Assembly (NCBI GenBank): GCA_022695795.1
Contig: MU404063.1
Location: forward strand, 639,682 to 703,681
Direction: 5' to 3'
Origin: Biscogniauxia marginata
Lineage: Eukaryota; Ascomycota; Sordariomycetes; Xylariales; Xylariaceae
Length of the DNA stretch: 64,000 nt
Shown: positions 48,599 through 57,021 of the stretch, piece by piece
How positions within the stretch are numbered: position 1 is the stretch's first letter
Layout: every line of letters starts with the position of its first letter
Notes under the pieces: generated by a model
Told to the model about the DNA's origin: nothing
What the model saw: the letters and a program-made list of their open reading frames with translations, nothing else
The model's database searches: none
Program-made: the position numbers and the translations under genes

Positions 48599-51545
48599 TT
48601 ACCCTGCTTTGACAGGCCCAAACAGCTCAGGCGAGACATAGAACGCATTCGATTGCCTGCCCGCCGAGTCTTGCTTCAGGCTTACCCATGCATGGATCCC
48701 CCGTCCCCGGTCCATCGGTCTACGTTGCACCGCACTGATTACCTTATTATACCTCTCCCGGTAGACAGGCGACGTACATGTCGCACTCATATACCTCTCG
48801 ATGCGTTCCTGAACCTCGGCATCATTATCCGCATATGTCACAATTGGAAAATGCACTGTGCCTACGGGGCTATCCGGCGCGTCGCTCGTAAACGCGAAAC
48901 ACGACAGCAGGGGCTTCGCGTGGAAGGGGCCTAGCGACCCGTAAGCCATAATCTCGCAGAACCGCTGGATCTCGTACGCGCATCCGTTCGGGCAGATGGC
49001 CACGTGCTTCTGCGCGATCTCGGACGCGGAGGTACCGGGATGGGCGATGTACACCTTGACGCGGGCACGCTTCACGTCTGGAAACAGGTCGAGCGAGAAG
49101 TAGACGACGGAGTCGGTGGATGTCATAATGCGTTCAACAAAGCCCCATGCGTCCGTCATACCGAGACGTTCGAACGCTTGCCGAGTTATGGACAGGGCAT
49201 TATCTTCCCCAGATGCACATGGGTTGAGATAGATCTTCCACTCCGGCCCAGTCTTCGATAACGCGCAGCTGTGCCACGCAGTAAATTTGCCTTTGGGTTG
49301 GGAAGGCATAAAGAGATCACGGATGAGATTGAAACGATCTAGTGAGACTGTCTTGTTGTATCTTGTGGCAAGGTCTTCGTTTAGTTGCAGTGCGCTCTCC
49401 TGGAGCTGTGGTAGGCTGTTCACCCCTGACTGGGCTTCGATTAGGAATCGGAGCTCGGCGTCTCCGGTCCTCTGGTCTAGAGTTACTGAGTACTCAAAGG
49501 GCGAACTGTCGTTGCTTACACTGGAAACCCAGCCCGACATATCTACTTCTCTAGGTATAGGCTTGTGGCCCCATTTCCCTGCCGCCAGCGTCAGAGCCTC
49601 AAGTAGCTGTTGTTCCGCTGTTGCACTTTGTCCAAGTGCCCGAGAAAGGTGTGATATCTGCCGCCTAGCTTCACTGATGTATGTGCCGGTAACGGTTTGG
49701 TCCAGAGGCACGGGTTTCATTCCGCTCTGGAAGTGCCGAAGACGCAAGTCCTTGCCCCGCGTGATCTCAACATTCGGTATTGTATGTCTCCTATTATACA
49801 GCTCCTTTAAAGCCGCAACCGTATAGTTGATATGCTCATCAGAAAGAACATAGCGGGGCACCGCAAAACGGACCAGGTTCGGTATATTCTTGCGGTCTTC
49901 TGGGGACTTCTTATCCCATTCCCACCCGAAAGGACCTGCTTCCGCCGCGCGGATGCCGTAATCCTTGATCAGCTCTAGGGTGAAGCCGACGGAGGCAAAA
50001 TCAGCCGGCTTCCTGTTGCAGCCGTAGAAGAACTCGTCCATGTCGAGGTAGACTGCGTGGCCTCCTGGCGGTGAGAGGACGGCGATTCCGCTCCCTTGCA
50101 GCTTCTGTGCAAATGATTGTACCTGGGCGATGCGGTTGCGGAGGTAGGATTTTTTGGTCACTTCGTACAGCCCGACCACGGCCGTCATTAAGTCCCGGCC
50201 ACTCACTAGATCGTTCGAAGTCAGTTTGAGGTTATGCCACCGGTTTACAGGGGATACCCAGCGCTTAATGAGAGCTAGAAATTACTTACTACCACCATAG
50301 GAATCGTTTCCATAACAGATAATCTGCCGCTCTTTGATACGGAGCCCTATACCTCCATACCTTCCGGCAAATAGTCCCTTGTCGCGAAAGCATAACGCGC
50401 CACCCATATTAGCAAGACCGTCTTTCTTCAAACTAATAGTAAACCCTTCAACATAAGAGAACATCTCTTGCACAATATCCGCAATCGTCTTGTCAGCGTA
50501 CCCACTCTCGAAACTGTGGATGAATAAGGCGTTCTCCGCAAATCGGCAGGCATCAAAGAATAGGGGAACTTGTTTGCGTTCCGCCAACGATGCGGCGTCT
50601 CTGATATTGGCCATAGAAACGGGCTGTGCGGCGGCCCAGTTGTTTGTGATGGTCATCAAGATCATGGACACTTGTCCAGGGTGCTGGTCAATAAAAGATT
50701 CGGTCGCAGCCACATCTAGATTTCCCTTGAAGGGGTTCGCTTTTCTGATAAGCTCCCGAGGGAACGGATTGCTCAACCCAGGTTGAGTGAACGTTTGGAG
50801 CTCAAACCCTGCTACGGCAGCATTGGCGCCAGTAGTATCAAAGAAGCCATTGCTAACTACCACCGGCCGACAAGACCCCTTCGTCTGTTGCGTCTCTTCC
50901 GCAATCATGTCCCTCAGTGTGGAAAATAGCAGAGACTCAGCACAACGTCCTTGCGGAACAATGAAAAAGTTTGGGCGTTCAAGCTGGTGAGTCCCACCAT
51001 TCACGAACCCGCTTTCGCATGACACCAGCAGCTTATTCTGGTAGAATTCACTATCTGCTGTCCCTGCAAGTATACTTCGGAATGCGCACTCTCGGTTATT
51101 TCCCCTCTCGAAGATGTCGCGAAAGGCATCTAAGAGGCAGTAATATCCCCAGTTGCGGCCGTAACTCTCATCGCCTCTCATCACTATAACGCCTTAAATC
51201 AGCCACTTCTATACTCGCTATGTTCCATAACGTGCTGAGCAAGTCTCGGAAGCCAAGTATATAAGAGACAGTCGAAAAGATACAATTTCCTTGGGGAGGA
51301 GAAGGGTAGGGGCTCTTACAGGCAGCCCATTGCACGTCTGTCATCGCCGAGGTACCAGAGTCTGATAGGTAATCACAGGTGACAAGCCCAGCAGGGAAAG
51401 CAAAGATGTTGTATTCAACATCTTTGAGAATCTTCTCGCGCTCTTCCGGTGTTACAGTCGAGAGGGACCTCACAACCACAGCGATATGCGATGGTGGGAG
51501 AGGCACACTTGGTGGCACAAATGAAGTCATTATAGAATTAATCAT
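48599..51545 (-). CDS. bifunctional fusion: tryptophanase domain + DMATS-type indole prenyltransferase domain
   Basis: One 908-aa frame from three exons: 51545-51320, 51183-50290, 50205-48599 (introns 136 and 84 bp, GT-AG, phases agree). Residues about 25-535 form a PLP beta-eliminating lyase: DYLSDSGTSAMTD, LMRGDESYG, VPQGRCAES (phosphate loop Gln153-Gly-Arg), NGFFDTT (Asp191), FFDACRFAEN (Asp286, Arg289), SLKKDGLANMGG (PLP lysine about 329), YGGMSGRD and LRHF (His531). Asp191 and His531 match Asp137 and His463 of tryptophanase, and Ala463 replaces the Arg381 of tyrosine phenol-lyase, so tryptophanase is the better call. Residues about 545-908 form an ABBA aromatic prenyltransferase: SPFEYSV (Glu611, indole-NH binding Glu), LRFLIEAQ, WKIYLNP, SLDLFP, ARVKVYIAHP (basic pyrophosphate sites), FPIVTYADND, GRGIHAWVSLKQ. 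Inferred: prenylation of Trp plus C-C lyase action to a prenylindole. A 40-residue insert (about 104-145) is present in the lyase. It is divergent to a P450. Confidence 0.93.
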
Positions 51546-52937: not shown

Positions 52938-54630
52938 ATGGCTTCAATAACTCTCTACGCAACATGTGCGTTTATAACGCTGCTATCATTATATGCCTTT
53001 AGAGTGTTTGCGACAAAATCGCTTCTGCCAACGCCACCTGGTCCTCCTCCTTTGCCGATAATTGGCAATGCGCACCAAGCACCGAAATCCCATGCATGGC
53101 TTCAGTATCACACCTGGAGTAAGACCTACGGGCCTATCATTCATCTGAATATGCTTGGACAATCTGTGATCATACTCTCTACCTCAAAGGCAGCACATGA
53201 TCTTCTCTCTAAGCGAGGCGCAACATTTTCAGACCGCCCACGTCTCGTTGTAAGTACTAATCTCAAGTTGCCACCCATTTGCTCGAAAAGTCTTCTTAAG
53301 CCAGCGTGGTTTCTAAATCTCGGACTTCAAGGTTTCAGCTGAGCTAGCACTGAAAGGCATGCATATGCTTCTAAGGCCTTACGACGAGCGTTTCCGGTTG
53401 CATCAAAGGCTGGAAAACCCGGTCCTAAACCCACGAGCAGCAAATTCCTATCTTTCCTTCCAAGGGCTGGAATCAAAGCAATTGCTATTCGATCTCCTGA
53501 ACGATGGAGGTGTTGCTGGGATTGACTGTCACGGACATTTCGAGCGCACAACAGCCAGTATTATTTACGCATTGTTCTACGGGTACCGGCTTAAATCCTC
53601 ATCTGAACCCGAGCTCGTTGCTGCACGCTCCGTAAACGACGAGTTCGGGCAGTTAGCCCAGGTTGGAGCATACCTTGTTGACTCATTTCCAATTCTGAAC
53701 AACCTCCCAGGATTTCTAGCACCCTGGAAAGCAGAAGCTGAGCGACACTGGAGTCGACAGCGTGCTTTGCATGTAGGCAACCTCCAGCGTGGCCTTCAAG
53801 GAAGCGAATGGAATTTCTCCAAACAAATGAAAAGTACCCTTGAAAGCGAGGGTATCGATATGCCCATTGAAGAGTTAGCACTTGACCTTGGCATTATGGC
53901 AGACGCTGCCATGGATGCCAGTACCGAGACTATGATGTGGTTCGTGGTGGCATGCGTTACGGAAAACCAGGAGTTTATTACCAAGGCGCAGAAGGACTTG
54001 GACGCCATCATCGGACGAGACAGATTACCCACCTTTGAGGATAAACCAAAATTGCTGTATATCGAAGCTATCATGGAAGAATTACTTCGATGGCGGCCTG
54101 CGGGTGCCGCAGGAGTCCCTCATTTCACGAAAATTGAAAGCAGCTACGAGGGATATAGAATTCCAGCAGGCTCCGTCGTCATAGCTAACCATTGGGCGAT
54201 CACGCGCGAAGAAGCGGTTTTCGGGCCCAAGGTGGAAGCTTTCATACCAGAGAGGTGGCTTGATTCGAAGAGCGGACAGGGCCCCAAAAGCAGCTCCGAG
54301 GAACTTAGAGATATTCCGACAGTAGGGTTCGGGTACGGGAGACGGATTTGTCCTGGACGACATATTGCACGTAACAGTCTATGGATCACGATCGCCAGAC
54401 TCTTATGGGCTTTCAATATTGAGCCTGGTCTCTCGGAATCGGGTGAGCGGGTTGCGATTGATTCTCTGGCAGCTACCGACGGTCTCGTTACGAAACCTCT
54501 GCCATTCAAGGTCGCATTCAAGCCCAGGGGGCAATGGGTGCGGGACATTATCACGAGAGAGTGCAACACCCATGATATGTGCTTTGCTGACATACTTAGC
54601 CAGATTGGGGCAGACTTGGCCGCAGATTAG
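52938..54630 (+). CDS. cytochrome P450 monooxygenase
   Basis: Membrane-anchored haem monooxygenase, 536 aa, two exons (52938-53249 and 53332-54630; 82-bp intron with acceptor CTTCAAG, chosen because it restores VSAELALKGMHMLLRPY). N-terminal helix (residues about 5-24) and hinge LPTPPGPPPLPIIGN. I-helix AAMDASTET (296-304; the usual Gly-x-Asp/Glu-Thr is relaxed), ExxR EELLR (354-357), PERW (410-413) and haem loop FGYGRRICPGRH with axial Cys444. All catalytic landmarks are intact. The sequence style is that of fungal class-E P450s of the O-methylsterigmatocystin oxidoreductase kind. It is divergent from the tryptophanase-prenyltransferase gene, so it likely oxidises the prenylated indole product; substrate and position of attack cannot be told. 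Confidence 0.93.
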
Positions 54631-55694: not shown

Positions 55695-57021
55695 ATGGAG
55701 GCTGTTATACAGCCGACCAAAATACCGGCGGCAAACTACATTGGTTCTCAGATTACACTCAACATCACTACACTTGTCGTTATCGCCATCAGACTTTGGA
55801 CCAATTATTGGCACTGCAAGAAGCTTTTTGCTGATGACTGTGAGTATTTTGGACTCATTCTCAAACATAAGTTTGTGTACATTAACCGTACTTTCTTTAG
55901 ACCTTTCTGTTGTGGCTCTTATCCTTGTTGCAAGCTACTCGGCAACATCGTCTATGATGAACTCAAGTAGGGGTTCTTTGATGATCACATTCAGATAGGG
56001 GCCTAACTAAGCGCTAGCATTCAACTCGACACCCGAAACGGTTTCCCTAATATTTATCACCAGAGTAGGTTACTCCTTTTTCGACGTCTTGTGTGCTCCA
56101 AATACATACTAATTCATGTGAGTTGTCCAGTTAGCAGCAGCATGCATCTTCACAGCGACGGCCGCAATGTACTTCGCGAAACTTCCCTTGCTGATTCTCT
56201 TCCTTAGGAGTTTTGGTGTCAAGAAGTGGTTGCGTTATACATGCTACACCCTAATGGTCATTACCGCTGTCGGATTCCTGGCTGCAGCGCTGTATACAGG
56301 AGTTAATTGCAGCCCAGAGATACATACCTCCCTGGGTGACCCGTACCTCTTTCGTTGTGTTTCCGCCACTTTTTACACAACTGTATCACGCAATTCACTA
56401 TCACTCATAGTTGATATGGTCATCTTTGTACTGCCCCTTCCAATTGTCACCAAGCTGAAACTGCCTCTTCGCAAAAAGATTGGCTTAGCCTTGGTATTTT
56501 TAACAGGTACTTTGTAAGTTCGTTATATACGCTTCAATCCCAAGCACTCGTAATACTAAAGTGACCAACCAATAATAATAGTGCTCTTGCAGCTGGTACA
56601 GTTTCTTTGTATTACCAGGCAGGGCAGTTAGCAAGCACCTCATCTAACATTACTAACGCAATGCTGGCCACGTAAGTTGCAAACTTCTTGCCTCTCACAC
56701 TAGGGATATTTCCCCTAATATTTGGCTAGTGTCATCGAATGCTGCATTGTGATCATTGTCAGCTGTGCGCCTGCTTTCCGGCTATTTTGGACACATTACC
56801 TTAAGAAATCCTCCCTGTTTTCTCAGTTTAGTGAATCCTCTTCCACAACCCGCTCGAAAGGGTCACAGGCCGTCAGCACACCGGGAGGAGTACCAAAAAG
56901 CAGTTCCGGACCAATACGAGTCACGACTCATCATTACATCGAACTTCGTGACTACCCAAATACAACAACGCCGTCTTATCAGGCCATAGCCAGTAGCAAT
57001 CAACCTCAGGCGTACATATAA
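55695..57021 (+). CDS. rhodopsin-domain (PTH11-like) integral membrane protein
   Basis: Six exons join into 340 aa: 55695-55839, 55901-55966, 56018-56064, 56131-56513, 56582-56671, 56730-57021. Introns of 61, 51, 66, 68 and 58 bp are GT-AG, several with CTAAC-type branch sites (for example CCTAACTAAG before 56017), and the frame is closed throughout. Hydrophobic helices: ITLNITTLVVIAIRLW, SVVALILVASY, AAACIFTATAAMYFAKLPLLILF, YTLMVITAVGFLAAALY, LIVDMVIFVLPLPIV, IGLALVFLTG, CCIVIIVSCAPAF. The pattern is that of the large fungal 'rhodopsin domain' family related to the PTH11 receptors, with the K-L-x-x-L-x-x-F-L-R helix end and PLP-x-x-x-x-LKLP-x-x-KK motif. The 110-residue Ser/Thr-rich tail is cytosolic by analogy. 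Exons 2-3 are the least certain. Such genes occur often beside metabolite clusters; a role here is not shown. Confidence 0.82.

Follow-up and report, generated by a model that had tools for sequence, protein, structure and literature searches.

The window analysed here, a 64,000-nucleotide stretch of contig MU404063.1 (positions 639,682 to 703,681) of the wood-inhabiting fungus Biscogniauxia marginata, carries a gene that encodes a tryptophanase-type pyridoxal phosphate (PLP) lyase and a DMATS-type prenyltransferase in one polypeptide chain (Table 1). The three exons join in frame to give 908 codons and a stop, with GT/AG borders at both introns, and the translated model is letter-identical to the deposited protein P0001, 'beta-eliminating lyase [Biscogniauxia marginata]', in agreement with the single spliced gene proposed in an earlier, sequence-only reading of this DNA. 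The domain border (residues ~540-546, near position 49700) lies within exon 3, in a single 560-codon open frame, and so splicing does not create the fusion. The Pfam matches cover residues 58-502 (PF01212) and 592-771 (PF11991), both over the cut-off, and about 6 residues separate the two folds. A single copy of the gene was found in the 45.3 Mb, 229-contig genome. The fusion of a tryptophanase-type lyase with a DMATS-type prenyltransferase is confirmed.

Table 1. Positions of the fused gene, its parts and neighbours in the window, and of bacterial DMATS places with a haem-oxygenase-like domain (numbered on their own records).
Feature	Position	Strand	Remarks
Fused gene, 3 exons (51545-51320, 51183-50290, 50205-48599)	48599..51545	minus	908 aa
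Intron 1	51184..51319	minus	136 nt, GTAAGA...ATAG
Intron 2	50206..50289	minus	84 nt, GTAAGT...CTAG
Tryptophanase-type PLP lyase domain, residues ~21-540	49706..51485	minus	spans both introns
DMATS/ABBA prenyltransferase domain, residues 546-908	48602..49690	minus	
Divergent cytochrome P450, candidate two-exon model, intron 53250-53331	52938..54630	plus	536 aa; PF00067
Fungal rhodopsin-domain membrane protein gene	56122..57018	plus	PF20684; two open reading frames located
Bacterial DMATS relatives with C-terminal haem-oxygenase-like domain	P0186-P0188; L011 1127-2917; L013 3338-5248; L014 9896-11749		PF14518 over cut-off
Bacterial DMATS places listed with haem-oxygenase-like domain	L052 6066-7883; L056; L057; L058		

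The fused build is a family and is not peculiar to B. marginata. Among the best 120 of 681 protein matches both parts are present in 107, comprising 76 nearly whole fusions, 24 pieces that start in the lyase tail and extend into the prenyltransferase and 7 other parts of both, while 13 are lyase only; two protein searches combined gave 42 junction-spanning pieces among 195 proteins. The matches listed come from Xylaria, Hypoxylon, Nemania, Rosellinia, Triangularia, Podospora, Colletotrichum, Metarhizium, Stachybotrys, Lentithecium, Corynespora, Mycena pura and the liverwort Riccia sorocarpa. Both halves have a common history: in 60 proteins their pairwise distances are correlated at 0.863, a value reached by none of 2000 shuffles, and for 54 of the 60 the protein closest by its lyase is also one of the three closest by prenyltransferase. 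Of the two halves, the lyase changes more slowly (median identity 67% versus 46% for the prenyltransferase).

The N-terminal half scores 478.6 with NF009709 (NCBIfam tryptophanase, cut-off 285) and 168.4 with PF01212 (cut-off 27). In respect to the TnaA equivalogs, the scores stay below the cut-offs (274.4 versus 825.8 for TIGR02617, 315 versus 750 for NF053783), as they also do for the long bacterial tryptophanase P0196. In the alignment with E. coli TnaA (L029), residues Y83, R155, D191, N257, R289, K329, R486 and H531 of the window protein correspond to Y74, R103, D137, N198, R230, K270, R419 and H463, respectively. The PLP lysine and the substrate residues (TnaA Y74, D137, K270, R419, H463) are thus all present, and we take them to have the same catalytic roles here. 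In the 60 proteins longer than 850 residues among P0001-P0073 (the 13 shorter ones were excluded), Y83, D191, N257, R289, K329 and R486 are kept in all, R155 in 59 and H531 in 52. A different picture is observed for TnaA I396, which corresponds to A463 of the window protein: this position is Ala or Ser in 58 of the 60 fusions, Ile, Leu or Val in 15 of 16 other tryptophanases (the exception is L009, a Polyangiaceae locus), and Leu in all 120 listed long bacterial tryptophanases, which are close relatives of Butyricicoccus 8sl7 and do not show which bacterial lyase is closest to the fungal one. Ala is found both in L009 and in its relative L052, which adjoin DMATS genes.

The C-terminal half belongs to the DMATS superfamily of the ABBA fold (PF11991, 50.8 bits, cut-off 25), and its predicted barrel has the five repeats and ten strands of that superfamily. 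The general-base Glu (E611) and the diphosphate-binding Arg, Lys and Tyr residues (R626, K697, Y699, R755, K757, Y759), whose roles are presumed here, are all present. Within 23 aligned fused rows, E611 is kept in 23, Y699, K757 and Y759 in 22, R626 and K697 in 21, and R755 in 20. The similarity is higher to bacterial DMATS enzymes than to the classical fungal type, and among the closest prenyltransferases of known structure are enzymes that prenylate Trp and were crystallised with it. Together with the NF009709 score, the two Pfam matches and the expected catalytic residues uphold the sequence-only assignment of a full PLP lyase and a full ABBA prenyltransferase to one protein, each half being placed in its predicted family. 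In the Aspergillus/Penicillium-type solo prenyltransferases P0130, P0135, P0137, P0160 and P0164, which group among the fused ones, the conserved R755 is replaced by Glu.

The P450 gene begins 1.4 kb upstream of the fused gene and is read divergently; its intron was picked from 20 open splice pairs for the GTAAGT donor. Judged by position alone, it is likely a cluster partner of the fusion. Further along lies the rhodopsin-domain gene, from a family with 126 match rows in the same genome. In the relative P0160 the gene model appears to join the tail of a membrane protein to a solo prenyltransferase, and this tail matches the C-terminal tail of the rhodopsin-domain protein (39% over 96; E 3e-12 when compared with the window), with no second match genome-wide at E 1 or better for the one candidate scored. 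This single match suggests that the rhodopsin-domain gene and the prenyltransferase gene have remained neighbours even in distant fungi. Left of the fused gene lie a BTB-domain reading frame, a Zn2Cys6 regulator and a short-chain dehydrogenase. Positions 1-38000 are AT-rich (13-29% G+C per kb) with just two open frames of at least 90 codons, and the gene-bearing DNA starts near 39 kb, ~10 kb from the fusion. A tRNA scan of the window found no tRNA.

The same two enzyme kinds occur as neighbouring genes in bacteria, a precedent correctly named in the sequence-only reading. In the excerpts of PMC3617294 used here, actinomycete Type A clusters combine an IptA-type gene with one for a tryptophanase and in some cases include a P450; IptA prenylates Trp, the proposed chemistry leads from Trp through 6-dimethylallyl-Trp to prenylindole, and 6-prenylindole is named as the likely intermediate. 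Two of the seven plasmid DMATS neighbourhoods viewed (9 records matched), both from Streptomyces (L033, L035), have an adjacent tryptophanase, with the prenyltransferase first. The prenyltransferase is also first in L009, the one locus with an adjacent tryptophanase out of six from a genome scan (some on short contigs). This kind of prenyltransferase is present in 7 of 282 genomes of L009's phylum, at 11 places (one being L009), and of the ten other places one, L052, has a tryptophanase (66% identical to that of L009), here with the lyase upstream. Both gene orders therefore exist in bacteria, and the claim that the N-to-C order of the fusion matches the bacterial pair fails for L033, L035 and L009, the lyase being first in L052 only. 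Cytokinin-dehydrogenase-like FAD (flavin adenine dinucleotide) oxidase frames are found at L009 7535-9160 and L052 2721-4247 (PF01565 and PF09265 over the cut-off). Enzymes of this kind act on isoprenoid side chains, and the oxidase may be a third step at these two loci.

We read the fused protein, with a probability of about 0.7, as a two-site enzyme of specialised metabolism in which Trp is prenylated and then cleaved to a free prenylindole. The C-terminal barrel would use a prenyl diphosphate, probably the dimethylallyl one, to prenylate the indole ring of L-tryptophan, the PLP lyase at the N-terminus would beta-eliminate the prenylated tryptophan to free prenylindole, pyruvate and ammonia, and the neighbouring P450 would probably oxidise the product. 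The supporting data are the fusion itself, the domain identities, the intact catalytic residues, the predicted folds and the correlated divergence of the halves; both activities, the prenylation-first order, the isoprene length, the ring position, any passage of an intermediate from one site to the other and the part played by the P450 are inferred. Prenylation is placed first because solved relatives bind Trp, IptA acts on Trp (excerpts of PMC3617294) and the residue at position 463 is small.

The reverse order, in which the tryptophanase frees indole and the prenyltransferase then prenylates it to the same end products, is unlikely, although the tryptophanase residues are kept in the lyase half and terpene cyclases, another enzyme kind, are reported as aromatic prenyltransferases giving prenylindoles (excerpts of PMC7414894). 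The Trp-bound structures of the nearest solved relatives and the activity of IptA on Trp (excerpts of PMC3617294) speak against it, and the order of the domains along the chain is uninformative on the order of the reactions. It is still less probable that the lyase acts on another aromatic amino acid, e.g. tyrosine as in the phenol-lyases, with the prenyltransferase acting on that substrate or its product. The tyrosine phenol-lyase model TIGR02618 also matches, and a DMATS-type enzyme was crystallised with Tyr (8day), but the 264 bits are far under the equivalog cut-off of 720.7, and the Asp and His of E. coli TnaA are found at D191 and H531 in 60 and 52 of the 60 fusions, positions where phenol-lyases carry Thr and Phe. 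Very improbable is a lyase working as a synthase or beta-replacement enzyme that builds prenyltryptophan from prenylindole: tryptophanases are reversible in vitro and the conserved site permits either direction, but this would require free prenylindole and an amino-acid partner, and several solved prenyltransferase relatives bind Trp directly. A gene-model artefact was rejected, and a relic with one dead half is likewise very improbable: records with a single half do occur in some fungi, but the junction sits in one open exon, the model is equal to the deposited protein, there are 76 nearly whole fusions and 42 junction-spanning pieces, and the catalytic residues are intact.

Several observations weigh against the prenylation-then-cleavage reading. 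The lyase-only records and the prenyltransferases that stand alone in Daldinia, Aspergillus and Penicillium show that the link between the two enzymes is not indispensable. H531 is replaced by V in 6 fusions and by L in 1, with a gap in 1 more, and key prenyltransferase residues are absent from single rows, which may mean that certain relatives are inactive or wrongly modelled. The score with the DMATS subfamily model TIGR03429 is 105 bits, below the cut-off of 163.85, as are the scores of the bacterial relatives P0183 and P0186. At the position of A463, the DMATS-adjoining Streptomyces tryptophanases L033 and L035 keep Leu, and Ala or Ser is also present in 9 of the 12 lyase-only records that could be aligned (1 of the 13 was not aligned). 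The small residue would fit a wider lyase pocket but is no clean mark of the prenyltransferase link.

The origin of the two halves was examined in trees with 23 of the 76 nearly whole fusions, 12 of the 13 lyase-only records and 9 solo prenyltransferases, hand-picked for name spread. A quick prenyltransferase tree unites all 32 fungal-type rows, fused and solo (a few metagenome rows and one liverwort included), in one clade (Shimodaira-Hasegawa-like approximate likelihood ratio test, SH-aLRT, 98), and a long branch sets the fused and bacterial rows apart from two classical DMATS proteins encoded in the B. marginata genome (SH-aLRT 99). A more careful tree, rooted on one classical row and with the long rows BAC_P0195 and L001 dropped, retains the grouping and has all fungal-type rows (83/55) as sister to all sampled bacterial rows (89/70), and thus does not support nesting of the fused clade inside bacteria. 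The prenyltransferase half may be an old separate fungal lineage or, as we infer from the tree split and the higher similarity to bacterial enzymes, may have been acquired from bacteria. The solo prenyltransferases of Daldinia, Aspergillus and Penicillium nest among the fused ones, which points to the lyase having been lost or split off later; P0179, a solo protein from Monosporascus, is near the base of the clade.

In the lyase tree, a quick one with long branches flagged (L029, L009, L017), 35 fungal-type rows form one clade (99), the deepest row being the lyase-only metagenome record P0120. The long clostridial tryptophanases join this clade (99), followed by L017 (99), and the short tryptophanases, including the DMATS-adjoining L009, L033 and L035, stand apart. 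As the lyase groups with the clostridial long forms and the sampled DMATS-adjoining partners lie elsewhere, the halves look like separate acquisitions. The sequence-only interpretation is borne out in part, and the separate phylogenies that it proposed add that the lyase is of the long clostridial class, unlike the short DMATS-adjoining ones sampled, and that the prenyltransferase is not of the classical fungal type. Simple capture of a bacterial DMATS-tnaA pair is unsupported by the sampled loci, the three paired tryptophanases being outside the fungal-clostridial clade; a bacterial pair with a long tryptophanase may exist unsampled. No prenyltransferase match was found in the 16 kb around L017 (a 40% lyase relative in G001's phylum, read as L051).

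Lentithecium and Corynespora are Dothideomycetes, and Mycena belongs to the Basidiomycota. In the prenyltransferase tree the first two form a pair (100/99) next to the Biscogniauxia row (84/79), though in the lyase tree they share just a larger group; Mycena groups with a metagenome row near Colletotrichum. These placements suggest that the fused gene moved between fungi. Riccia sorocarpa is represented by two proteins, one fused and one lyase-only (P0049, P0082), mutually closest in the lyase tree (99) and located on records of 31.9 and 52.3 Mb; gene transfer into the plant, or contamination, is possible. A wider scenario is offered tentatively, with the odds against it when taken as a whole: a fixed two-site enzyme would have arisen a single time in fungi, by the joining of a clostridial-type tryptophanase to a DMATS enzyme of bacterial type that was acquired separately, convergently with the bacterial pairs. 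Prenyl-tryptophan would pass from the barrel to the lyase, whose pocket would be widened to take the prenylated ring, and the enzyme would have spread between distant classes of fungi and perhaps reached a liverwort.

Five other, classical DMATS loci are present in the B. marginata genome (contigs C95, C13, C145, C21 and C17), that on C145 with in-frame stops (intron or decay). Another fused DMATS build is seen in bacterial relatives with a C-terminal haem-oxygenase-like iron enzyme domain (Table 1), weakly BesC-like in P0186. By tblastn such a domain lies behind 5 of the 10 DMATS places in L052-L060; that of L052 is not recognised by Pfam.

Both enzyme kinds, and their coupling as bacterial neighbour genes, are already known; their fusion appears to be new. 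No description of it was found in the open-access literature searched, which leaves most subscription-journal papers uncovered, and the portions seen of papers on Hypoxylaceae metabolism and on Biscogniauxia papillata do not mention it. Proteins of this build have been deposited from many fungi under generic names ('tryptophanase', 'beta-eliminating lyase'), and these automatic names would conceal a widespread biosynthetic enzyme. If the proposed chemistry is true, the gene offers genetic access to free prenylindoles in fungi, by a route that the excerpts of PMC3617294 describe for actinomycete clusters only, and a natural test of whether enzyme fusion aids the passing on of an intermediate. 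It would also suggest that the coupling has arisen repeatedly, with tryptophanases of different lineages.

Among known systems, the Type A clusters couple the same two enzyme families, with a P450 in some, but differ from the fusion (as seen in L033 and L035) in having two genes, the prenyltransferase first, and short tryptophanases of another lineage. They also carry bacterial conservon genes (excerpts of PMC3617294; present in L035), whereas Pfam finds no conservon-type domain in the 19 reading frames flanking the fused gene, which therefore lacks the layout of separate genes with a conservon. The long clostridial tryptophanase of Butyricicoccus (8sl7) is stand-alone, without a prenyltransferase, and has Leu at the position of A463. 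On the prenyltransferase side, the bacterial DMATS enzymes IptA, PriB, CymD, 5-DMATS and 6-DMATS, solved as stand-alone proteins, show ~25% identity to the fused half, and the classical fungal enzymes (DMATS1, 8db0, and the other loci of the same genome) share the superfamily fold with it. L009 and L052 have both enzyme types side by side, with a prenyltransferase ~36% identical to the fungal one; unlike in the fusion, the genes are separate, and the tryptophanase, 32-33% identical, is without the long insert.
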